Source: Candidatus Eiseniibacteriota bacterium (lineage in GTDB: Bacteria; Joyebacterota; Joyebacteria; Joyebacterales; Joyebacteraceae). From it: DNA of 64,000 bases. The notes below the pieces were generated by a model. It ran no database searches, was not told where the DNA came from, and worked only from the letters and a program-made list of their open reading frames with translations. The position numbers were made by a program, and so were the translations under genes. The DNA lies in contig JAUXGN010000001.1 of the NCBI GenBank assembly GCA_030622115.1, forward strand, positions 1 through 64,000, read 5' to 3'. Every line of letters begins with the position of its first letter. Within the stretch, counting starts at the first letter, position 1. Positions 36,824 through 49,428 of the stretch are shown here, piece by piece.

Positions 36824-37035
36824 AGGTATCTCCTTGAGCGTTCGTGGTCAGAGTGGAGCTTCTTGACAGAAAGCCCTCGGGCATGATTCGTTTGACAGGG
36901 CAGCATGGATGATGTAGGAGATGGGCTGAATGGGCTGCCGGCTCGCTTCTGTGGACGATACCACATTCGTGTGCGGAGAGGAAAACAACTGCAGCGGCCG
37001 CAGTGGTCCTGGCGTGGTCGCACAAGGGGGGATCT

Positions 37036-38478
37036 ATGTTGAGAATGCTCGTATCCGTGCTCGCCGTGCTCATGATTCTGAGCGTGGGTGCCCTGGCGGA
37101 CGTGGCCTGCGATGACCTTGCCGTCGGTATCAACTTCGGCATGCTTCAGCCTACCGGTGGAGAGGAGTCGTACGAGGAGAGTGGTATGCTCCTTGGGCTC
37201 ATGGCCAAGAAGCCCCTCACGGACCGTATATGGATGGCCTTCGAGTACTCACACGGTGTCAGCGCAAACAGCGAGGCAGTGCCCGCCGGCAGGCTTCAGG
37301 GATTCGGCGGCGCGGATGAGTTCCTTACCGTATGGAACAAGGCTCAGGTCTTGGGTGTATACAATCTAATTCCCGAGGGGCGGGTCATTCCGTTCCTGAG
37401 CGCCGGACTCGGCATGACCTTCTGGGAGGTTCAGGACTGGCGGGAGGACGCGGCTGAAGAAGGAGAGATCGCCGACGGTTATAACGATGACGGCAAGAAG
37501 AAGACGCTACGCTCCACCGATTTCACGGCCGTAGTCGGAGCCGGGGCAGACATCTTCGTTACGGACGCTATCGCCCTTACAGTTGGAGGACGCTACAGCT
37601 TTCTCCTGGGCAACGACATAGACAACGTGGGTCTGAGTTCCGTCGCTGGAGCGGACTGGGTCGACGCGAACAACGCGATCCTTGAGGCGTATGCCGGCCT
37701 TACCTTCTACTTCGGCCCCGGTGATTGCGATGGGGACGGCATCATCGGCAAGCAGGATGAGTGCTGGGACGTTGCTGAGGACTTCGACGGTTTCGAGGAC
37801 GAGGATGGATGTCCCGAGGCTGACAACGACATGGACGGCATCCTCGATGAGGACGATGCGTGTCCCGACGATCCCGAGGACTTCGATGGCGACGCCGACG
37901 AGGATGGATGTCCCGACATCGATATCGATGGCGATGGCATCCTCGACGAGAATGATGCGTGCCCGGAGGACCCGGAGGACTTCGACGGCTTTGAGGATGA
38001 GGACGGGTGTCCGGAGTTTGACAACGACGGCGACGGCGTACTCGATCCGATCGACATGTGCCCCGACACGCCGCTTGGTGTCGTGGTCGATGCCCACGGT
38101 TGTGAGGTCATTCTTCCGGCCACTGCCGCAGCGGACATCTACCCGGTCGGCGTGAGATTCCAGCTGAACAGTGCCGTCATCCAGTCGGAGGGGCGGACGG
38201 AGCTTGAGAAGATGGTGGTCATCCTGACGGACTACCCCGAGCTTGTGGCCGAGATCGATGGCTTCACGTGCGACCTCGGAGAGGCCGACTACAACATGGC
38301 TCTCTCTAAGAAGCGCGCCACAGCGGTCATTGCGTATCTTGTAGAGCGCGGAATGGCGGTCGAGCGCTTCAACGAGCAGGCTTTTGGTGAGGATCGTCCG
38401 GCATTCCCGAACATTGATGAGAAAAGCCGCAGCAGGAACCGGCGGGCGGTGATCACGCCGAAGCGCGTCGACGAGTAG
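37036..38478 (+). CDS. OmpA-family outer-membrane protein with TSP3 calcium repeats
   Basis: A 480-residue protein with a signal peptide ('MLVSVLAVLMILSVGALA'), an N-terminal beta-barrel (to about residue 230), a run of four or five thrombospondin type 3 repeats ('DGDGIIGKQDECWD', 'DEDGCPEADNDMDGILDEDD', 'DNDGDGVLDPIDMCPDTP') and a C-terminal OmpA domain ('FQLNSAVIQSEGRTELEKM', 'NMALSKKRATAVIAYLVERG', 'EKSRSRNRRAV'). The OmpA domain holds peptidoglycan, the TSP3 part binds calcium and acts as a stiff periplasmic linker. The ATG at 37036 has AAGGGGGG upstream. A terminator follows. Confidence 0.9.
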   Translation: MLRMLVSVLAVLMILSVGALADVACDDLAVGINFGMLQPTGGEESYEESGMLLGLMAKKPLTDRIWMAFEYSHGVSANSEAVPAGRLQGFGGADEFLTVWNKAQVLGVYNLIPEGRVIPFLSAGLGMTFWEVQDWREDAAEEGEIADGYNDDGKKKTLRSTDFTAVVGAGADIFVTDAIALTVGGRYSFLLGNDIDNVGLSSVAGADWVDANNAILEAYAGLTFYFGPGDCDGDGIIGKQDECWDVAEDFDGFEDEDGCPEADNDMDGILDEDDACPDDPEDFDGDADEDGCPDIDIDGDGILDENDACPEDPEDFDGFEDEDGCPEFDNDGDGVLDPIDMCPDTPLGVVVDAHGCEVILPATAAADIYPVGVRFQLNSAVIQSEGRTELEKMVVILTDYPELVAEIDGFTCDLGEADYNMALSKKRATAVIAYLVERGMAVERFNEQAFGEDRPAFPNIDEKSRSRNRRAVITPKRVDE

Positions 38479-38526
38479 TGGGAGGGCAGTCGGAGCAGCA
38501 CTGGAATCAGAGAGAAACAGCCGAAA

Positions 38527-38562
38527 AGGGGGAGGGGTCGTGAGACCACTCCCCCTCTATTT
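38527..38562 (+). terminator. Terminator of the OmpA-like gene
   Basis: A 13-base stem (AGGGGGAGGGGTC with GACCACTCCCCCT, one mismatch) with a four-base loop, followed by CTATTT. It starts 48 bases after the stop codon. Confidence 0.75.
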
Positions 38563-38744
38563 GCGTGGCACATACCTTGCTATTGATCAGGAAGGCGGTC
38601 TGATGCGCACGGTCTCCCCGCGCTTGATCCGGGCGGGACCGGTGGAGTAGATGCAAAATGCCGGAGCGTGGGTGCATTCTGCTCTGTCGGCGCAAATTAG
38701 ACCAGCTTACATTTGGCCACTGGAACTCTCACGGAGGAATCGGC

Positions 38745-40058
38745 ATGGGACGCCGCATCGAGGAGACACATCGAAGACTGTTCGTAGCCGCCTTCAAGGG
38801 ACGGGACCGGAAGGCAGTGCTCGATCGTCTTCGGAGTGCCGGTTACGATGTGATCGAGGGAGAAGAACCCAACAGCATTGTCTCCGAGGTCAACGCGGCA
38901 GCGCCGGATCTGATCGTCCTGGACCACACTGAGAAAGACATTCAGGCGGCCAATTGCGAGGAGAAGCTGGCGTCCGACCAACACACACGGAAGATACCGG
39001 TTCTTGTTATCTGTGGTCCTGATGAGAAGAGACGTGTTGAGACCGAGCCGACCGGTATCGACCATCTGTACCGACCATTCAGTTCCAGCGAACTTCTTCG
39101 GCGGATCAAGGCCGACATTCGTGTGGCATATGACGAGGCTGAGGGAGGGAAAAGGCCGAAGCGCGACGGCGTGACAAAGCTCTACAATCGCTTCTACTTC
39201 GATGAGAGAATGGAGAAGGAGATAGAACGCGCACGGCGCTACAGCCGCGAGCTATCGCTGGTCTTCCTCGACATCGATGGGCTGGACAACATCAACAAAT
39301 CCTTTGGTCACGAGACCGGTGATCTGGCTCTCAGATCTCTCGCCGACATCCTGCTGGCAGGGACTCGACTCTCCGACATCACGTGCAGATTCGGTGGTGA
39401 TGAGTTCGCTCTGATTCTCCCCGAAACAACAGGCGCGGATGCAGGGATCCTCGCGGAGAGGCTGAGGCTACTCTTCTCCGGCCAAGTGCTGAAGTCCCGT
39501 GCCGGGGACGTGGTAGTGACAGCATCGTGCGGCGTGGCTGAATACCCGGATCACGGAGGTGACGCTGTAACGATCGTACGCATGGCGGATTCGGCCATGT
39601 GCAGAGCGCGCAAGGAGGGAAGGAATCGGACGGTCGTGGCTTTTTCAGACGCGGGCGAGCCGTCCTGGGGTGGGGCCGCCGCCGGACCAACGATTCTTCT
39701 CGTGGAGGGCAATGCATACAACAGAAGCGTTGCGTCCGTCGTTCTGAGAGCAAACGGCTATGAGGTGATAGAAGCCGGAGATGGGACGACAGCGCTGGCC
39801 CTGGCCAAGTCCTCTCACCCGGATCTTGTCATCATGGATCTCGGTTTGAGCGGCCTGAGCGGCCTGAGCGGCCTGGATGCGACGCGACAGCTCTATGCGA
39901 TGGAGGAGACAAAAGATATCCCAGTGGTTGCACTCACGAGCAGCGAGACACCACTGGACATAGAGGAGCTTGTGAAGGCCGGGTGCCGAGGCTACATAAC
40001 AAAGCCGATCGACACGAACAGCCTTGCTTCGCAGATAGAACCGTACATCGAACACTGA
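38745..40058 (+). CDS. Diguanylate cyclase flanked by two receiver-like domains
   Basis: A 437-residue protein. Residues 1-125 are a degenerate receiver domain: the phospho-aspartate is present in 'DLIVLDHTEKD', but the usual lysine is an arginine (YRP). Residues about 135-300 form a GGDEF domain with the intact active site 'RFGGDEFALI' and, five residues before it, an RxxD inhibitory site (RLSD). Residues about 310-437 are a second receiver with 'VIMDLGL' and 'ITKPID'. It would make cyclic di-GMP with product inhibition. A three-residue G-L-S repeat lengthens the loop after the second phospho-aspartate. The ATG at 38745 has GGAGG seven bases upstream. Confidence 0.9.
   Translation: MGRRIEETHRRLFVAAFKGRDRKAVLDRLRSAGYDVIEGEEPNSIVSEVNAAAPDLIVLDHTEKDIQAANCEEKLASDQHTRKIPVLVICGPDEKRRVETEPTGIDHLYRPFSSSELLRRIKADIRVAYDEAEGGKRPKRDGVTKLYNRFYFDERMEKEIERARRYSRELSLVFLDIDGLDNINKSFGHETGDLALRSLADILLAGTRLSDITCRFGGDEFALILPETTGADAGILAERLRLLFSGQVLKSRAGDVVVTASCGVAEYPDHGGDAVTIVRMADSAMCRARKEGRNRTVVAFSDAGEPSWGGAAAGPTILLVEGNAYNRSVASVVLRANGYEVIEAGDGTTALALAKSSHPDLVIMDLGLSGLSGLSGLDATRQLYAMEETKDIPVVALTSSETPLDIEELVKAGCRGYITKPIDTNSLASQIEPYIEH
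39843..39869 (+). repeat. 9-bp tandem repeat encoding G-L-S
   Basis: Three near-identical nine-base units encode G-L-S three times in the second receiver domain. Compared with ordinary receivers this loop is three residues longer, consistent with gain of one unit. Confidence 0.75.
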
Positions 40059-40087
40059 CCCAAGAGAGAACTAAGAACGCAGTATGA

Positions 40088-40115
40088 CGCGGGCGGCGAT
40101 TACTCGTCGGCCGCG
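40088..40115 (+). terminator. Probable terminator after the diguanylate cyclase
   Basis: A stem of CGCGG and CGGCGA against TCGTCG and CCGCG (one G-G mismatch, one G-U pair), loop TTAC, followed by TTCTGTTGCG. The U-tract is imperfect. Confidence 0.5.
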
Positions 40116-40154
40116 TTCTGTTGCGTCTCCTTTCCCGATGCCGCGCTTCCTGTT

Positions 40155-42392
40155 ATGCTAAAGGACAAACGCGCCTGCTGCCAATGGCTTGTACGGGAAC
40201 GCACGTTCATGCCCTACCACCCGAAACATCATACACCAGGCGGCATGCTCCAAGGCACTGTGTGGCAAGTCATCCAGGGCACGGCTCTGACAGTGTTGCT
40301 GTTGGCGGTCGTCGCAGGTGGCGCAAGCGGTGGCATGACCCTTCATCACACCCCACAACAGGCGGTCCCGGCCGGAACGTGCGTCTGCGTTGAGTGGACC
40401 GTCCCGGGTGGGCTGCCTCATGATGAGATAGCGACGGCCGACGTGGTCATCGTATCACTGTCGGTGAACGGGAGCCGTAGCGAGAGGACCATACCACTTG
40501 TGCCGGGGCGGGATGTCCTGCGGGGCGAGATCCCAGCTGAAGCCGTGCGGAGTCCGGCGGTCGAGTACTTCTTGAGGATAGTCGACATGGATGGGACGGA
40601 GAGCGTCTTGCCGCCCGGCGCCCCCGAGGCTGGACTCTACAGGACTACAGTCTTCGACCTCTCCTTGAGGAGTGACCGGCTTCCTGCGGATGGCAGCATA
40701 GACACAACCGTGGAACTCCTGTCGCCGCTTGCGGGAGAGGTTGTTCATACGGCGACGCCGGAGATCGCCGGGCTAATCGATCCCCCGCTCGAAGATCCCT
40801 GGGAAGCGCTGTTCATCCTGGACGGGGAGGATCTGACCCAGTCTCTGGAAGTGGCGAGGGATCTGTTTGTTGTCACCCTCCACGATAGCTTGGATCGAGG
40901 CGGTCACGCGGCTACTCTCGTGGTGTTTACCCCCAGCCGAACGGTTGAGGCATCATGGGTATTCTTCGTTCACGAGCGGGGCGACGCCGCGCCGACGGAG
41001 GAGCTGGGTGTCGAGTTCGGAGACCTGCTCGAAGCGGGCCCTCTTGACCTTCATGGAATGGTGGAAGTTGGGTGGGCAGTCGTCCTGGCCGAGACAACAG
41101 CAGTCGAGTCACTCGACGTCTATCTGCCATACGAAGAGACAAGCGCTCCCAGTTTCAATCTATACGCTGCGGGCGGCGTTGGTGGAGCGTCCATCCTCGT
41201 GACGGTGCAGTCTGACCCCGTGTACGATGAGGACATTCACTGGCTCGTTTCAGCTGAAGGGCAGCGATACAGACTTGAGGCCGGTGAGGTCTTCCCGGAG
41301 TTCACGAGCACGACGCTCGAGTGGGCTTCGGGCGTGGGCGTTCAGGGAGAGCTCAAGCACGGAAGAGGGCTCACACGCGCCGTGGCAATGAGGATGAGCG
41401 AGGCAGATACAATTGGCGGGCTTGGCATCTACTCCAGATTCGCGCTTGGCGTGCTGGAACGCGTCGAGTGGAGTGAGCGCACGTCCGTCACGTTGAGCTA
41501 TCTTCACACTTTCGATAGAGAAGGATCGATCAAGGAAGAACAGCGTCTTGTGGAGCCGCTTGTGAATCATGTACTGGCGTCAGAGGCGCGTGTGGAGTTC
41601 GGTGGCGGAGGTTCGGTAGAGATCGAGATTGGGCGCTCCGGAACAAGCGGGTATGTTTCACCCAGTGATGATTCCTTCAGCGGAACTGCCGTTCGCGCCG
41701 AACTGGGGTGGGTGCGCGACCACGGCAATCGCGCTCTGCTCAGGTATGTCCAGTCCGACAGTGACTTCTGCTCGGCCGGAAGCTTGAGATATGATCCCGG
41801 CGAACGCGGTCTGGAACTGGAATACGCTTGGAGTGTTATGGGAGTGAAGCTGTCCGGAAGCAGCGGCATGTTTCGCGCCGGCGATCCGGATGGGGGGATA
41901 GCGCTCGATCGCAGTGAGATGAAATTCTACGGCAGAGCAGACATTGTCCGGGAGATCGGAGATGGATCGATCAGGGGTTATGGCGTCGCCAGACACGATG
42001 TTATCCCGTACGATGCGTACAGTTACAGATACACCTACGCGGCGGGCGGAGCAACGTACAGGGTCAGCCGCGTGAGCGCGACATTGAGTCTGTCGTGGTC
42101 GCGAACCGATTCCGATGGGCGTTCACACACCATAAGCGCTGGAGGTGACGTTCGCCTTGCAGTGATGCCGGGCAGACTGTCCGTGCGTGGGAGCGCGAGG
42201 TGGACCATCGGAGAGAGCGACGACGGCGATACCAACTACGAACGGGCGAGCTACGCGCTCGTCACGAAACTAACGGGCGGCGAGCAGGACATACGCGTGG
42301 AGTACCGCTATCTGGAGAAGGAAGATATTGCCACCCCTGCGCAATCCTATGGCGAACATGTGCTGAAGATAGGAGTAGGGGCGTCTTTCTAG
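40155..42392 (+). CDS. Outer-membrane barrel protein with N-terminal periplasmic Ig-like domains
   Basis: A 745-residue exported protein of unknown function. A hydrophobic signal segment lies at about residues 40-60. Residues 60-265 form beta domains; the last (about 185-265) reads 'LIDPPLEDPWEALFILDG' and 'ASWVFFVHERG' and aligns with the periplasmic domain of the anti-sigma-like protein encoded at 43017. The rest (about 280-745) is a series of amphipathic strands ending 'HVLKIGVGASF', a barrel-type terminal phenylalanine. The start is uncertain: ATGs at 40155, 40209 and 40245 are in frame and none has a strong ribosome site. It lies 93 bases before the ECF sigma gene on the same strand. Confidence 0.65.
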   Translation: MLKDKRACCQWLVRERTFMPYHPKHHTPGGMLQGTVWQVIQGTALTVLLLAVVAGGASGGMTLHHTPQQAVPAGTCVCVEWTVPGGLPHDEIATADVVIVSLSVNGSRSERTIPLVPGRDVLRGEIPAEAVRSPAVEYFLRIVDMDGTESVLPPGAPEAGLYRTTVFDLSLRSDRLPADGSIDTTVELLSPLAGEVVHTATPEIAGLIDPPLEDPWEALFILDGEDLTQSLEVARDLFVVTLHDSLDRGGHAATLVVFTPSRTVEASWVFFVHERGDAAPTEELGVEFGDLLEAGPLDLHGMVEVGWAVVLAETTAVESLDVYLPYEETSAPSFNLYAAGGVGGASILVTVQSDPVYDEDIHWLVSAEGQRYRLEAGEVFPEFTSTTLEWASGVGVQGELKHGRGLTRAVAMRMSEADTIGGLGIYSRFALGVLERVEWSERTSVTLSYLHTFDREGSIKEEQRLVEPLVNHVLASEARVEFGGGGSVEIEIGRSGTSGYVSPSDDSFSGTAVRAELGWVRDHGNRALLRYVQSDSDFCSAGSLRYDPGERGLELEYAWSVMGVKLSGSSGMFRAGDPDGGIALDRSEMKFYGRADIVREIGDGSIRGYGVARHDVIPYDAYSYRYTYAAGGATYRVSRVSATLSLSWSRTDSDGRSHTISAGGDVRLAVMPGRLSVRGSARWTIGESDDGDTNYERASYALVTKLTGGEQDIRVEYRYLEKEDIATPAQSYGEHVLKIGVGASF

Positions 42393-42485
42393 CTCAATCA
42401 TGATGTGCGGTTTCGGCACACGGTCCGGAGGGAACATCCCGGCGGCGTGGCGGCTCTAATACATGACGGGGATCGGAGGTCACGG

Positions 42486-42995
42486 ATGGCGAACCCGAAG
42501 TTTGAGGAACTCGTCATGCTGTATGATAAGCGACTCTTCAACGCCATGTACGCCTACATAGGGGACTATCACCTCGCGATGGACGTTACGGAAGAGGCTT
42601 TCATCCGAGCCTGCCGTGCCTACGGCCGCTTCCGTGGTGATTCCGATCCGTTCACCTGGCTCTACAGGATAGCCGTCAATGTCTTCAAGAAGCGCTATCG
42701 AAAAGAAAGGCGTCGGGCAGAGCTTCTCGCGCAACACCACGAGGCGGAGCCGCCCGAGACCGTTGAGCACAGCACTCCCGAGACGCAGGTTCTCGCAGCG
42801 GAACGCGCGGGACTTGTGAGGAAGGCGATCAGCTCGCTGCCGGAGACCAGCAGAGATGTGATAACGCTTCGCTACATCGACGGTATGACATACGAGGAGA
42901 TCGCAACGGCGACATCTGCATCGATCGGAACCGTGAAGTCGAGGATATCGCGGGCGAAGAGGATGCTCGCAGAGCTGATCGGCGACGACATCTGA
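42486..42995 (+). CDS. ECF-type RNA polymerase sigma factor
   Basis: A 169-residue sigma factor with only regions 2 and 4. Region 2 reads 'AMDVTEEAFIRACRAYGRF' and 'DPFTWLYRIAVNVFKKRYRK'. Region 4 has 'LPETSRDVITLRYIDGMTYE' and the helix-turn-helix 'TSASIGTVKSRISRAKRML'. It redirects RNA polymerase to a small set of promoters. The ATG at 42486 has GGAGG six bases upstream. The gene 21 bases downstream encodes a membrane protein laid out like an anti-sigma factor. Its targets cannot be told; the adjacent surface genes are candidates. Confidence 0.93.
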   Translation: MANPKFEELVMLYDKRLFNAMYAYIGDYHLAMDVTEEAFIRACRAYGRFRGDSDPFTWLYRIAVNVFKKRYRKERRRAELLAQHHEAEPPETVEHSTPETQVLAAERAGLVRKAISSLPETSRDVITLRYIDGMTYEEIATATSASIGTVKSRISRAKRMLAELIGDDI

Positions 42996-43016
42996 GAGAA
43001 TGGCGAGGGCCGCAAG

Positions 43017-43625
43017 ATGAACACAAAGAACGAACGAACACGGGACATCAAGAACGGGAACGGAGACGGCGAACGGATCGAGCGCCTGCTTGTCGAGCTT
43101 CCGCCGGTCGAGCTTCCGCCGTTCTTCAGAAGCCGATTGCTGGCTCGGATCCGGAGAGAGGAAGATCGCCCGTCCTGGGTTGCGGCAATCACCGGGCGGA
43201 ATGCAGGCTGGGGCGTTGCTGGAGCCTGTGCGGTGGCGCTTCTTCTCGTTGTCGTTCACTTCAGCAAGGTACCGGAGCCCACAGGGGTCGACCCTTTCCT
43301 TGCCGGGTCGAGCACCGTCGCAATCAGTCCGCTCATGCCGGTGGACAGCTCCTACGTCGGAGCCTGCGACGTGCAGATTCTGGCATCGATCGATCCGCCC
43401 ATCAAGGGCGGGCTTGTGAGGCTGTTCGTTGACGACAGGGACGTGACAGGATTGGCTGAGGTGACGGGAAGCTACGTCATGTACTCACCCGCTGAGAAAC
43501 TGGACGAAGGTGAGCACATTGTCAGCATTCAGATACGTGATGCATCGGGCACCGTTCTGAGAGACGTGTCCTGGCTGTTCAATGCGGTGAACGGGAGCGG
43601 GACGAGACCCGACGAGCGCGTGTAG
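43017..43625 (+). CDS. Membrane anti-sigma-like protein with periplasmic sensor domain
   Basis: A 202-residue single-pass protein. The cytoplasmic part (1-60) contains 'LPPVELPPFFRSRLLARIRR', like the sigma-binding end of many anti-sigma proteins, but no zinc-type HxxxCxxC motif. The membrane segment is at about 65-82. The periplasmic part (105-195) is a beta domain: 'IDPPIKGGLVRLFVDDRDVT', 'LDEGEHIVSIQIRDASG', 'VSWLFN'. This domain is shared with the outer-membrane protein encoded upstream. Control of the adjacent ECF sigma factor is inferred from gene order and topology. Confidence 0.7.
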   Translation: MNTKNERTRDIKNGNGDGERIERLLVELPPVELPPFFRSRLLARIRREEDRPSWVAAITGRNAGWGVAGACAVALLLVVVHFSKVPEPTGVDPFLAGSSTVAISPLMPVDSSYVGACDVQILASIDPPIKGGLVRLFVDDRDVTGLAEVTGSYVMYSPAEKLDEGEHIVSIQIRDASGTVLRDVSWLFNAVNGSGTRPDERV

Positions 43626-43698
43626 CAGGGGCCCGCATACCGCGTCGCCACGAGACCCATGAGAGGGTCAACCCAGGGCCGAACGAGGAGGAGACATC

Positions 43699-45813
43699 AT
43701 GAAATGGAGACACAGCTTGTCCGGAGCGCGGAGGGGACATGCGCCACCATGCATCGTTCCGGTAGTTGCGGTCATGATGCTCTGCCTCACGGTAGCGCCA
43801 CTGTTGGCCGACGAGGGGTTGAGCGTTCTCGTCTCACCAAACAGGGCGCATACGGTTTTGGACGGCTCTGTGCGATTCACGGCGACGGCGCTTGACGGCT
43901 ACGGTGGCGAGATTGCTGCGGAGCTTGCCTGGAGCGTTATTCCTCCACGCCTTGGCCGGATCACACCGGACGGTCTCTTCACATCCGCAGGGATAGCTGG
44001 GAGAGGTGTTGTCAGAGTGGTCGCCACGCGCGGGCGGGAAATGGGAGCCGGGCACGCGGTTGTAGAAGTGGGGGGTGAACCATCACTTCGGCTCTCCGTT
44101 GTAGTCCGTCCTCCAGCGGCTGCTTTCGCACAGGGGGAGACAGGCGAGTTCGACGCCATTGTCACTGATCCGTCGACGGGCGCTGTCCTGCCGGCCGACC
44201 TCACTTGGATGGTTGTTCCCGATCATCTGGGGTCGCTCGATGCGACGGGTCTCTTTACGGCGTCTGGAGAAGCAGGCGCTGGTCGGATCGTCGTCCGGGC
44301 ACTTCATGAAGACCGAGAAGGTTTGGGAGATGCCGGCGTCGTGATCGGTGACGCGAGCGGACCAGACATCAAGGTCCGTGTGATTCCCCGCCACGCCCTC
44401 CTGCGCCCCGGCGAGGAGAGTCGATTTGGGGTTCGCGTGACGGATTCGTCGGGTGACCCGCTTGACGTGGAGGTTGACTGGTCGATCATTCCCGCGCGAC
44501 TCGGTGTCATAGACTACGATGGTCTCTTCACCGCGGGCCGCGAGGATGGAGTTGGACGCGTGATCGCGACCGTTGTGACTGAAGCCGGTCCCGTTCGGGA
44601 CATGGCGCTCGTCGAGGTGAAGCGGCCGGGGCCCGGAGGAGTCAGGATCGCTCTCGCACCGGGGCAGGTGGCTCTGGCTCCCGAGGGCGATGTTCAGTTT
44701 GAAGCGACCGTCATTGGTCCCGAGGGAGATGAGCTTGAGATCCCCGTCGACTGGAGGGTCCGTCCGGACTGGCTTGGGAGCATCACTGCCGACGGATTCT
44801 TCACTGCATCAGCCGAGTATCCTGAGCCATCCGCGAATGGCGGGTGGATGGGAGGTGTCGTCGCCTCGATTGAGACCGGTGATGGCGCAGTGGCGGAAGT
44901 GGCGCGCGTGTTCATCCGAGAGAGTGGCCCACCACTGAGGCTTGACATCAGGCCTCAGCAGCCGCGCATTGCTCCGGGCGACGATGTTCAATTCGAGACC
45001 GAGGTGGTGGGTGCCGATGATTCAATTGACTGGACCAACGAGTGGGCCGTCTTCCCTGAGAATCTCGGCGCCATCACCCCGGAAGGTCTCTTCATCGCCA
45101 ACCCGGCCTTCGGCGATCCCAACTCTGGTGAGTTCGGGTCGCACGAGGGCGTGGTCGCAGCGCGCGCGACCTTGTCCGACGGGTCGATCCTGACGGATCT
45201 CGCTCACGTGAGGGTCCGGCTTCCCGGTCAGCCCGTCAGGATCCGTGTGACACCGGTGTATTCTGTGGTTCCGGTCGGCGAATCCAGGGAGTTCGTGGCG
45301 ACCGTCATCGGTACCGGCGGAGATGTGCTGGAGGCGCCGGTCACCTGGAGGGTGGTGCCCGAACGACTTGGGATCATCTCACCGGATGGCATCTTCACGG
45401 CCGCCGATTTGCCGATAGATCCCGGAGAATGGCAGAGACCTCACGGCAGCATCATCGCTGAGGTGAGAGCCCCCGGTGGACAGGTTTTCCGAGGCATCGC
45501 CATCATCGTGCTCGATCTGCCGGATCCGGAGATACGCATCCACGTGACGCCGCGGTCGGCGACAGTGGAGCCGGCTGAGTCGGTCGGATTCAGCGCGGAA
45601 GTGTCCGACATCGAGGGCAACCCTGTCGAGCTGCCAGTCGTGTGGCACGTTGTTGATGAGGTTGTGGGGACCATCGGGCCGGACGGGGTCTTCACGGCCT
45701 CGGGCTCGGTTCCCGGAGGAGGCACGCATTCGACACGCATCGCGGCTGGTGTGGTCTTCGCTGGGCGCACGTACTGGGATTTCGCGAAGGTTCGCGTCTC
45801 GGCACATCCGTAG
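43699..45813 (+). CDS. Secreted protein of seven bacterial Ig-like repeats
   Basis: A 704-residue exported protein with a signal peptide (about residues 15-38) and seven tandem repeats of about 90 residues. Each repeat opens with a beta strand such as 'VRIRVTPVYSVVPVGESREF' and contains the core pattern W-x-V-x-P-x-x-L-G-x-I-x-x-D-G-L-F-T-A, as in 'VIPPRLGRITPDGLFTSAG' and 'VVPERLGIISPDGIFTAAD'. This resembles the BIG-2 class of bacterial Ig folds found in adhesins and surface layers. No membrane anchor or sorting tail is seen at the C-terminus. It lies between the anti-sigma-like gene and a lipoprotein gene, all on the same strand with short gaps. Confidence 0.8.
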   Translation: MKWRHSLSGARRGHAPPCIVPVVAVMMLCLTVAPLLADEGLSVLVSPNRAHTVLDGSVRFTATALDGYGGEIAAELAWSVIPPRLGRITPDGLFTSAGIAGRGVVRVVATRGREMGAGHAVVEVGGEPSLRLSVVVRPPAAAFAQGETGEFDAIVTDPSTGAVLPADLTWMVVPDHLGSLDATGLFTASGEAGAGRIVVRALHEDREGLGDAGVVIGDASGPDIKVRVIPRHALLRPGEESRFGVRVTDSSGDPLDVEVDWSIIPARLGVIDYDGLFTAGREDGVGRVIATVVTEAGPVRDMALVEVKRPGPGGVRIALAPGQVALAPEGDVQFEATVIGPEGDELEIPVDWRVRPDWLGSITADGFFTASAEYPEPSANGGWMGGVVASIETGDGAVAEVARVFIRESGPPLRLDIRPQQPRIAPGDDVQFETEVVGADDSIDWTNEWAVFPENLGAITPEGLFIANPAFGDPNSGEFGSHEGVVAARATLSDGSILTDLAHVRVRLPGQPVRIRVTPVYSVVPVGESREFVATVIGTGGDVLEAPVTWRVVPERLGIISPDGIFTAADLPIDPGEWQRPHGSIIAEVRAPGGQVFRGIAIIVLDLPDPEIRIHVTPRSATVEPAESVGFSAEVSDIEGNPVELPVVWHVVDEVVGTIGPDGVFTASGSVPGGGTHSTRIAAGVVFAGRTYWDFAKVRVSAHP

Positions 45814-45887
45814 CGGAAACAATCGGGATAGACGGCACCCAGCAGGCGGGGGATAGAGAGATTTTCCGACAAGAGAGGGGTCTCCAG

Positions 45888-47333
45888 TTGACGAGGCGCT
45901 TGATTGCAGCGCTCGCCCTCGTGACGGCGACGGCCGTTGCTATGGCGGGGTGCAGCACGAGTCGGCCAAGCGGGAAGGATATCGAACAGCTTCCCCCTGA
46001 GCCGGTGTGCACTGTGGTGAAGGGGCAGGCTGCGAGATTCTGGGCCGAAGCGCGGGACGGTTGGTGGCAGGAGGGGGGAAGCATGCTCATGGTAGGCCGA
46101 TCCGAGGGAGAGTCGGATTCTCCCGGGGCGCTCGCTGCTGCCTGTCGTGACGCAGCTCCTTCGATTCTGGATCTCCTTGCTCAGCGCGGAATCAGCTACT
46201 CCTATGAGCGAAGGGGCGAGATCGAAGAAGAGCTCGGCCGGTCGCTGGCATCCACGGGCCAAGCCGTGTTTCCTCGCGCCAGGATAAACAGAGAGATCAT
46301 CGAACACTGCGTCCGGGAGCCAGGCTCCTCTGGACACTGGCGGAGCAGGATCCTCATAGAGTATCCGATAGCCTATCTTCGAGGCGACGTCAGCAACGTG
46401 GAGTGGGAGAGGGACAAGCTGGCACGGGAGGCCGCGACACTGGTCAAATCGGCGGAGGTGTTTCTTGAGGAAGGCCTTTGGCTCAGAGGGCAGAGTGAGT
46501 TGTCGCGGGCCAAGCGCACGCATGATGCAATGGGGCTTCCCGAGATCGGCGTGCATCCCGGTGTCGTGACACAGGGGGCCGTCGACCGTATCGCAGAAGA
46601 CGCCGCTCGGAGCCTCATGCTTGAACCGAACGTTGCGACCACGCCACTTATCGTCCGTGCGGGTGAGATGACGGAGATACGATTCCGGTTGAGTTTTGAG
46701 CAGGGCGGGGGCCGCGTATCCGCGATCGGTGTGCCTGTGGCGTTTGAGAATCCCGAGTGGGGTGTGATCGTGCGGGCCGAGCGAGTGAGTGGGTCCGGGG
46801 GCATCGTCTCTGTCACCGTACGAGCGGCGGAGAAGAGAGACCGGGGAGATGTTCGCGCTCGCATCGACCGGAGTGCTCTGGCGTCCACGCCAGCCAATCG
46901 ATTCACGCGCTTCATCACAGATGATTCATCCAGAGCGGCGGTCCAGGTTCAGGTCATTCCGGAGCGCGGAGTGAGTGTCTGCCTCGATCTGAATGGTGTT
47001 GATGCTGTCGCCGTGGGGCGGCTGACGGATGCGTTCGAACGGGCTTTGGGTCAGTACGGTTGCACACTGGAACAATGCGGGCCGGAGACCGACATAGTTG
47101 TGAGAGGAAACCTCAGTACGAGCGCAGTGACGTTAGGCCACGGGGGAGAGCAGCTCCTGGCCGTGCTCAGTATGGAGGCATTCGATCAAAGGACGGCCCT
47201 GGAGATAGCGAGGACCACCATACGCGTCGAAAGGCCGTCACGAGAGAACAAGGAGGAAGCGGAGGCGCTTGCGTTTCGAGAGGCAGGGAGACTGCTGGCG
47301 GTCTATCTGGAATCGCGGATCATGCCGGACTAG
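45888..47333 (+). CDS. LPP20-like lipoprotein
   Basis: A 481-residue lipoprotein. The signal 'IAALALVTATAVAMAGCS' ends in a lipobox with the cysteine at about residue 22. The next 150 residues resemble the LPP20 family: 'ARFWAEARDGWWQEGG' then 'LMVGRSEGESDSPGALAAAC'. The second half has a beta domain (about 250-340) and a mixed domain. The function is unknown. The start is a TTG with GAGAGG upstream. It is the last gene of the same-strand block that starts at 40155 and meets a minus-strand lipoprotein gene 49 bases further. Confidence 0.65.
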   Translation: MTRRLIAALALVTATAVAMAGCSTSRPSGKDIEQLPPEPVCTVVKGQAARFWAEARDGWWQEGGSMLMVGRSEGESDSPGALAAACRDAAPSILDLLAQRGISYSYERRGEIEEELGRSLASTGQAVFPRARINREIIEHCVREPGSSGHWRSRILIEYPIAYLRGDVSNVEWERDKLAREAATLVKSAEVFLEEGLWLRGQSELSRAKRTHDAMGLPEIGVHPGVVTQGAVDRIAEDAARSLMLEPNVATTPLIVRAGEMTEIRFRLSFEQGGGRVSAIGVPVAFENPEWGVIVRAERVSGSGGIVSVTVRAAEKRDRGDVRARIDRSALASTPANRFTRFITDDSSRAAVQVQVIPERGVSVCLDLNGVDAVAVGRLTDAFERALGQYGCTLEQCGPETDIVVRGNLSTSAVTLGHGGEQLLAVLSMEAFDQRTALEIARTTIRVERPSRENKEEAEALAFREAGRLLAVYLESRIMPD

Positions 47334-47382
47334 AGCTGACCGGCCCGGCGAGCGCCGAGAGGGGCGGTTGTCGCAGTGCGGC

Positions 47383-48126
47383 CTAGCGCCGGCGTGCGAT
47401 GCCGGCAGTGTCAGCCACTGTGAGTTCGAACAGGCTGAGCGTATCGTAGTATGAAACCGTGAAGTACCCCCACCCGCCGCCCGTGACGTTCCCGTCGCTT
47501 CCGCTGCCGGGGTACGGTCCTGCCACTGCCGTGATCCTACCTTCAAGCTCACCGGCGAGAGTGATATCAGCAGGTACAAACACCGCGGTCGTGTCGGTCG
47601 TCGCCTGCGACAGAACGAGGGAATCGCCGCGCGCTCCCCTGATCACGCACTCCACTTTGTAGTAGTCCGCGTCCGCCGCCGTTGCCCATTCCACGAACAG
47701 AGTATCTCCCAGAGACACACCGTCCGGCGGGACAACGCTGAACGGTCCCGGAACCGGCTCAATAGCCTTAGCGAATCCCCACTCGGTTGTCACCTTGAGT
47801 GAACAGGCCTGGCTATTCTGCCAGATGATCGCATCCTCTTCGAGTGTCGCCACAAGTCCGAGAGGTTCACCGACGGTGATCTCCGAGATGGAGCGGTCAC
47901 TCACAGACACCACGAAGATCGCTGGAAGCGGATCTGAGGTGCAGAACACCATGACCGACGCGTGGGCGCCTTGGACGAGTCGGGTCTCAAGAACGCTCGC
48001 GCCGATGAACGGATCACTTTCGTTCTCATTGATGGGACAGACGATATCGTTGCTGCACCCGGCGAGAAGGATCGCCACAAGTACTGCACCGGCGTACACT
48101 GCCTTGGACCACGGAGAACAGATCAC
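47383..48126 (-). CDS. Lipoprotein of unknown function with fibronectin-like domain
   Basis: A 247-residue lipoprotein: the signal 'AVYAGAVLVAILLAGCSND' has the lipobox LAGC. The rest is beta-rich; the second half reads 'GVSLGDTLFVEWATAADADY' and 'YKVECVIRG', like a fibronectin type III strand pattern. The GTG start lies three bases after the stop of the decarboxylase gene, with GGAG six bases upstream, so the two form an operon. No enzyme motif is seen. Confidence 0.65.
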   Translation of the reverse strand: MICSPWSKAVYAGAVLVAILLAGCSNDIVCPINENESDPFIGASVLETRLVQGAHASVMVFCTSDPLPAIFVVSVSDRSISEITVGEPLGLVATLEEDAIIWQNSQACSLKVTTEWGFAKAIEPVPGPFSVVPPDGVSLGDTLFVEWATAADADYYKVECVIRGARGDSLVLSQATTDTTAVFVPADITLAGELEGRITAVAGPYPGSGSDGNVTGGGWGYFTVSYYDTLSLFELTVADTAGIARRR

Positions 48127-48129
48127 TGC

Positions 48130-49428
48130 CTACTCCAATCCGGAGAACGGCTTCTGGCGAAGCATGACGTCTGCGTGCTCTCCACGCTCTCTGATGAGAG
48201 ACGCCTTTCCATTCAGAACAAGGATCTCGGCTGCGGTCGGATGTGAGAGAAATCTCAAGGGACTCATCGACAAGCCGTAGGCCCCTGCATTGAAGATGCC
48301 GATGAGATCATCTATCGCGATGTCGTCAGGCGTCTTGATCTCCTGACTTGTTACATCGATAGGCGTGCAGAGCGGCCCGGTGACCTTGGCACTTGCCGTC
48401 CCGGGCTGCCCGAGCCTGTTCACGACGGCGGCTTCGTGGCGCACCTTCATGAGCATCGGTCGGACGAATTGGTTGATGCCGCCGTCGGTGATAACGAAGC
48501 GCTCTCCCCTTGACTCCTTGAGTTCGAGCACGCGGGTCAGATACACGCCGCACTCGGACACGAGGATTCTGCCCAACTCCAGAATGAGACGGAATCCATC
48601 GCGTTCGGAATAGGGGGAGAATACGTTCTCGACCTTCGCACCGAGCGCCGGCAGGTCGAGCTGTTCTTCCTTGTCGTAATGAGGCACGCCGAAGCCGCCG
48701 CCAAAATCTATCGCTTCGAGCTTGCCGCCGATCAGATCCTCCACGCGTCGCGCGGTTGCTACCGTACGTTCGGCATTCGCCACTATCTCATCGGCATGAA
48801 GAATCTGGCTTGCCGTGTAGACATGCACGCCGACGATGTCGATCGTCTTTCTGTCCCAGTGGTCAGCAAGTTCGTCGAGCTTCTCTGCATCGATTCCGAA
48901 CTTGCTCGGGCCGCCGGCCATATGCTCGTGGAGCGGGCCGGTCGAGCCACCGCCCGCCTTTTTGAGACCGTCGGACGTGTTGATTCTCAACGCCACACGC
49001 GCCGGGACACGGAGCAGTCGCGATATGTGCGATATCCGATCGAGCTCCCTCAATGACTCGACATTGATGGCGAAGATCCTGGCCAGAATGGCGTCCTCCA
49101 GCTCGCGGTCGGTCTTGCCGGGGCCGGCGAACACGATGTCGAGCGGGTCGTATCCGATTTCCCTTGCGACGAACAGCTCTCCGCCGGATGCCAGTTCTAC
49201 CCCCGCCCCGAGCTCCATCAGGAGCCCGACGAGAGCAAGAGACGGATTCGCCTTCATCGAGTAGAAGAGTTCAAATGACGGGAAGGCGTCTCTGAGGGCG
49301 CGGAAACGCTCGCGTATTCTGTCGCCGTCGTAGATATACGTCGGGGTCCCGAACTCCCCTGCGAGGTGTGTCACAGGAATTCCGCAGATCTCAAGCACGC
49401 CGTCCCGATGTGTGAAGTTCCTGAGCAG
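48130..49428 (-). CDS. Type III PLP-dependent decarboxylase, diaminopimelate decarboxylase-like
   Basis: An alanine-racemase-fold decarboxylase of about 433 residues. The PLP lysine is in 'LFYSMKANPS', and the phosphate-binding glycines are in 'DFGGGFGVPHY'. Where LysA has C-E-S-x-D this protein has 'GPLCTPID', as in BtrK-like and exosortase-associated decarboxylases, and E-P-G-R is E-L-G-R. The substrate may thus not be diaminopimelate. The likely start is a CTG at 49428 with a perfect AAGGAGG five bases upstream; the ten added residues end F-x-x-R-D-G, matching the family N-terminus. A GTG at 49398 has no good ribosome site. A promoter lies at 49543-49571. Confidence 0.8.
   Translation of the reverse strand: MLRNFTHRDGVLEICGIPVTHLAGEFGTPTYIYDGDRIRERFRALRDAFPSFELFYSMKANPSLALVGLLMELGAGVELASGGELFVAREIGYDPLDIVFAGPGKTDRELEDAILARIFAINVESLRELDRISHISRLLRVPARVALRINTSDGLKKAGGGSTGPLHEHMAGGPSKFGIDAEKLDELADHWDRKTIDIVGVHVYTASQILHADEIVANAERTVATARRVEDLIGGKLEAIDFGGGFGVPHYDKEEQLDLPALGAKVENVFSPYSERDGFRLILELGRILVSECGVYLTRVLELKESRGERFVITDGGINQFVRPMLMKVRHEAAVVNRLGQPGTASAKVTGPLCTPIDVTSQEIKTPDDIAIDDLIGIFNAGAYGLSMSPLRFLSHPTAAEILVLNGKASLIRERGEHADVMLRQKPFSGLE

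Follow-up and report, generated by a model that had tools for sequence, protein, structure and literature searches.

The window, a stretch of 64,000 nucleotides from a genome of Candidatus Eisenbacteria, carried five consecutive genes on the forward strand between positions 40155 and 47333. Their open reading frames were found where the preliminary description had placed them, separated by gaps of less than 100 bases. The first gene (40155..42392, + strand), supported by the ORF call and by orthologues, encoded a barrel protein of 745 amino acids as called; judged by the orthologues, the true start is probably 40212 or later. The protein comprised a signal peptide, two N-terminal domains and a predicted C-terminal beta-barrel. 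An Ig-like domain shared with the product of the third gene spanned residues 185–275 (40707..40979, + strand) and directly preceded the barrel. The second gene encoded an RpoE-like ECF sigma factor (42486..42995, + strand). Its start is most likely ATG 42486, giving 169 amino acids, and not GTG 42405, because a conserved promoter occupies 42430–42459. The third gene (43017..43625, + strand) encoded a putative membrane anti-sigma factor with a cytoplasmic part, one transmembrane segment at about residues 65–82 and the extracytoplasmic copy of the shared Ig-like domain at residues 103–190 (43323..43586, + strand). The last gene of the sigma operon (43699..45813, + strand) encoded an exported protein of Big_2-like Ig repeats. 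It was followed by a gene for a lipoprotein without a significant Pfam family (45888–47333). Defence-system models gave no matches.

A C-terminal phenylalanine was present in 14 of 14 barrel proteins, and alternating hydrophobicity was seen as a lag-2 signal. Both features suggest a location in the outer membrane. One barrel orthologue matched Porin_4 with a best E-value of 0.0016. The barrel of the window had no match to any Pfam family up to an E-value of 1, and no TonB receptor, plug or STN family was found among its orthologues either. The AlphaFold model of the barrel was unusable, with a pLDDT of 28 obtained from a shallow alignment of five genus sequences, and searches with barrel and domain profiles against solved structures returned nothing useful. 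A hairpin with a folding energy of −23.2 kcal/mol (z −2.7) was located at 40086–40117, between a GGDEF gene and the barrel gene, and was largely kept in the genus. Termination of the GGDEF transcript, or its separation from that of the barrel, is a possible role.

The sigma factor contained sigma70 regions 2 and 4 only, with PF04542 and PF08281 in Pfam and TIGR02937 all above cut-off. The solved structures closest to it were RNA polymerase sigma-H, of the sigma-H/AlgU type, and sigma-E. Against the RpoE equivalog TIGR02939 it scored 126 bits, below the cut-off of 236. Residues 19–82 of the anti-sigma matched an NCBIfam anti-sigma model with an E-value of 2e-5, which was below the cut-off of that model. 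In Pfam, the protein showed a weak Big_13 match and no significant family, and searches up to an E-value of 1 revealed no FecR, STN or RseA/RseB family. The zinc motif H-x3-C-x2-C of the ZAS type was absent from the window protein and its orthologues in the same family. It was present, N-terminal of the transmembrane segment, in the orthologues read from family f130 of a second phylum, which supports naming the window protein an anti-sigma factor, though the motif was lost there. The protein would restrain the sigma factor. The Ig-repeat protein had a sub-threshold Big_2 match in Pfam, and its profile matched LigA of Leptospira.

The anti-sigma was found in 15 of the 20 genomes available for Candidatus Eisenbacteria, all of which belong to one family, f1. 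Named relatives of the Ig gene likewise came mostly from metagenome-assembled genomes of Candidatus Eisenbacteria. Many of the compared genomes are fragmented or incomplete assemblies. Barring genes cut by contig ends, the order barrel, sigma, anti-sigma and Ig gene held in the 15 module-bearing genomes. The Ig gene was invariably located 3′ of the anti-sigma wherever the contig extended far enough and the gene was callable. One Ig-repeat match, G008:C5:25667–27499, contained two in-frame TAG codons; either the gene is broken or the assembly is wrong there. The conserved unit is four genes, encoding the barrel, the ECF sigma factor, the anti-sigma and the Ig-repeat protein.

The preliminary description had proposed a system of five genes that included the lipoprotein at 45888–47333. 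This gene lies on the same strand behind a gap of 74 bases and is adjacent to the module in all five genus members, but outside the genus it was not found beside the module. Two genomes without the module, G006 and G009, retained OmpA, GGDEF, lipoprotein, SRP and lysA genes in the same order as around the window, so the four-gene module looks inserted between GGDEF and the lipoprotein. The module of G005 sits between GGDEF and lysA, with no lipoprotein there. From the three neighbourhoods it follows that the lipoprotein belongs to older surroundings, and its membership in the system is largely refuted and very improbable. Of the five-gene proposal, the linkage of four genes beyond the genus stood and the inclusion of the lipoprotein did not. 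In the window, the OmpA, GGDEF, lipoprotein, SRP and lysA-like genes, which predate the module as a neighbourhood, occupy 37003–40058 and 45888–49398.

A search with the barrel profile covered 386 genomes and found relatives in other families. Family f130 comprised ten genomes of a separate phylum, as assigned by the collection itself. The anti-sigma with its C-terminal domain was present in all ten. Most of the f130 loci that were inspected showed the four genes in the order of the window, and some carried a FecR-domain gene inserted between barrel and sigma. Two loci were truncated by contig ends, and L129 and L130 were only partly callable with the crude ORF calling used. The five-gene order that the preliminary description had proposed to look for in relatives recurred as a four-gene order in 15 of 20 f1 genomes and in most f130 loci inspected, the lipoprotein being found adjacent only within the genus. 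Identities of the f130 proteins to those of the window were low, at 39% for sigma, 25% for the anti-sigma, 24% over 282 residues for the barrel and 34% for the Ig protein. The f130 barrel kept the shared domain; its first N-terminal domain was not found by profile. In family f99 (L096:6335–10144 and L097:7330–11000), the barrel adjoins an Ig gene without sigma and anti-sigma genes, and a DsbD gene is close by.

As had been proposed from the letters alone, the two copies aligned over their full length, namely the anti-sigma domain and, in the barrel protein, the second of the two N-terminal domains. BLASTP gave 28% identity over 105 residues with an E-value of 9e-9. The profile–profile comparison of 15 anti-sigma and 13 barrel orthologue domains gave a probability of 98.0% and an E-value of 1.5e-13. 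A significant profile match and linkage of the genes in relatives, on which the preliminary description had made its proposal depend, were hence both found. Domain pairs from the same genome, scored singly in 14 genomes, lay about 9 to 18 standard deviations above shuffled sequence. The AlphaFold model of the anti-sigma, likewise from a shallow alignment, was weak (pLDDT 52), with moderate confidence in about residues 120–190 only. Ig/FnIII-like sandwiches were many of the better-ranked structure matches for the domain model, and the shared domain probably adopts this fold, the fold matches being a hint only.

When 55 copies of the domain were placed in a tree, those from the anti-sigma proteins of the two phyla fell into one clade (support 99/96). 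A second clade (97/89) contained the copies from the barrels of f1, f130 and f99 and was separate from the domains of other barrels. The tree was calculated from 95 columns, has long branches and was rooted at the midpoint. As moderate evidence, it is consistent with a single split of the domain that would predate the divergence of the lineages.

Related domains were also detected in other long ORFs of many families and phyla, many of them of the size of barrel proteins, where they precede barrels. The domain may therefore do a general job. It could be a generic spacer, with the anti-sigma sensing something else; one example would be the protease-mediated detection of misfolded envelope proteins known from RpoE/RseA. 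The RpoE-like character of the sigma factor would suit such a role, as would its targets, which are exported proteins like those of an envelope-stress response. The anti-sigma domain is strongly conserved, however, with a mean column identity of 77%, and it was kept on the anti-sigma in two phyla. Furthermore, genome-wide searches of the relatives with the anti-sigma protein or the domain profile gave, within each module-bearing genome, no other match than the barrel gene of that genome. A spacer role is therefore judged improbable.

The sigma promoter, GGGAACATCCCGGCGGCGTGGCGGCTCTAA at 42430..42459 on the + strand, has the consensus GGGAAC-N18-CTC(T/C)AA and ends 26 bases 5′ of ATG 42486. It has a GGAAC −35 and a TCTNA-like −10 element. 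The pattern GGGAACA-N(14–20)-CTCTAA matched exactly once in the 2.63 Mb genome of the window, at this position. The promoter was located just 5′ of sigma in 15 of 15 module-bearing genomes, and three f1 genomes without the module had no match. A reversed control pattern gave two matches across all 18 genomes. Seven loci of the f130 genera g137 and g249 showed the element before sigma with identical 18-base spacing, the g137 copies having one mismatch at the first base. The element was not seen before sigma in L129 and L133, two more distant f130 loci that were inspected. Among 17 selected sites, nearly full information was found at −35 and −10 and little across most of the spacer; these sites were picked with the motif in mind, and the profile is descriptive and no test. 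A scan allowing one mismatch was near the control level in most genomes, and only sites that matched exactly or recurred in several genomes were relied on.

A promoter shared by the regions upstream of 40155 and 43699, for which the preliminary description had proposed a search, was not found; the promoter lies at 42430, before sigma. The upstream alignment revealed a conserved block before the barrel in other genera, and its opposite strand reads as an ECF promoter. In several f1 genera, this conserved element faces away from the barrel, towards a lipoprotein gene. It forms a second site there, from which a lipoprotein of some 300 residues is expressed, encoded near the barrel and divergent from it. 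In the genus of the window, the same lipoprotein is encoded on a different contig (G000 contig 35, 6515–7363), and its promoter, GGGAAC-N18-CTCCAA, was kept in all five genus members. This promoter-bearing lipoprotein is of a different family from the one at 45888. In f130, lipoproteins of about 305 residues follow the element, which in G148 has one mismatch; they show homology to the f1 lipoproteins with a score of 40 bits. Other f130 sites, some conserved across genomes, were located before small exported proteins and, in G285, before a FecR-domain gene. At L178, L179, L180 and L188, all of the second phylum, a promoter of the sigma type precedes genes for small exported proteins, which have a length of about 170 residues and contain charged repeats (KNEIKTKNQGEETQLR...).

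None of the loci examined had the barrel gene behind the sigma promoter element, and co-regulation hence gives no tie of the barrel to the module. This placement of the promoter suggests that the barrel, expressed independently, is a likely input, with Ig protein and lipoprotein as outputs.

The same targets would also suit a reading in which the anti-sigma copies the docking domain of the barrel, both proteins binding one third partner. The likeliest partners are the Ig-repeat protein and the regulon lipoprotein, which are targets of the sigma promoter. The Ig protein is the first candidate because barrel and Ig gene adjoin in f99 without sigma and anti-sigma genes and may be the older pair. 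The sigma factor would then answer to how much of the partner is free, which would amount to feedback or a checkpoint on assembly, and contact between barrel and anti-sigma would be unnecessary. Anti-sigma factors with extracellular sensory modules have been published for clostridia, where they are the RsgI proteins (PMC6056542). Against this reading, G005 has the module, but the regulon lipoprotein was not found in it. Binding of a common third partner is considered rather unlikely, although less so than a mere spacer.

The favoured reading is a four-gene trans-envelope ECF signalling module in which the state of the barrel controls the anti-sigma through the homologous periplasmic Ig-like domains. 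It is put forward tentatively, at slightly less than an even chance, and builds on the gene order in two phyla, the homology of the domains and the promoter with its targets. The barrel protein would be an outer-membrane protein whose N-terminal Ig-like domain faces the periplasm. The anti-sigma would cross the inner membrane, hold the sigma factor inside and display the homologous domain outside. The two domains would meet in the periplasm, most likely directly, and the state of the barrel would decide whether the anti-sigma stays or is removed, presumably by proteolytic release. The freed sigma factor would transcribe its own operon of sigma, anti-sigma and Ig-repeat protein, as well as the unlinked lipoprotein.

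The best reading by analogy is that the module works like FecA/FecR/FecI signalling with unrelated parts. As in FecA/FecR/FecI, PupB/PupR and FoxA/FoxR, a barrel is combined with an inner-membrane anti-sigma and an ECF sigma factor. The anti-sigma PupR ends in an STN subdomain that is structurally homologous to the signalling domain of its transducer PupB, and the two proteins bind (PMC7186176); there too, the N-terminal domain of the barrel and the end of the anti-sigma have a common fold. In FoxA/FoxR, the transducer shields the anti-sigma from proteolysis (PMC11637429). In contrast to these systems, domains of the TonB receptor, plug, STN and FecR types are missing from the window proteins, an Ig-like domain is the one that is shared, and the promoter precedes sigma and not the barrel. 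Membership in TonB-dependent signalling was rejected, since the window has neither a TonB-receptor, plug or STN barrel nor a FecR or STN anti-sigma.

RpoE/RseA and AlgU/MucA share with the module an RpoE-like sigma factor, a GGAAC −35 and TCTNA-like −10 element and envelope proteins as targets. They differ in that the window anti-sigma has an Ig-like domain in common with a linked barrel; compared with RpoE/RseA, the window sigma is also under the RpoE equivalog cut-off and RseA/RseB are not matched. SigI/RsgI of cellulolytic clostridia likewise combine an anti-sigma carrying extracytoplasmic sensory modules with an autoregulated sigma operon (PMC6056542), whereas these systems are Gram-positive, their modules are carbohydrate-binding and an outer-membrane partner is missing.

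The preliminary description knew of no system with this layout, and no description was found in the open-access library searched either, for the module or for an arrangement of FecR, barrel and CHASE2 genes described below. It is possible, though held with less than even confidence, that signalling from the outer membrane to the cytoplasm by domain sharing was invented independently here. This joint proposition takes in a non-TonB barrel and an anti-sigma with homologous Ig-like domains, a sigma promoter that two phyla have kept nearly unchanged, and the coupling of related barrels to adenylate cyclases elsewhere. If the domains act together, cell-surface signalling by barrel and anti-sigma arose more than once and needs neither TonB nor siderophores. 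Such regulators are little studied in uncultured phyla, for which the module offers concrete parts: a matched domain pair, a promoter whose spacing is fixed, and a set of candidate targets. The module suggests an unstudied route of signalling from the outer membrane to genes and lends itself to reconstruction and testing in a laboratory strain.

In several other lineages, a barrel gene is flanked by genes for a FecR-domain protein on one side and a CHASE2 adenylate cyclase on the other. These barrels carry related N-terminal Ig-like domains and, like the barrel of the window, lie beside membrane signalling genes. The output differs, being a predicted cyclase and not a sigma factor, and the barrel similarity is mostly confined to the N-terminal domains. 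Possibly, the same kind of barrel input is used with the cyclase as output. Such neighbours were present at L041:5121–10502, L101:1995–7514, L105:1752–7318 and L107, and L040 showed barrel and cyclase only.
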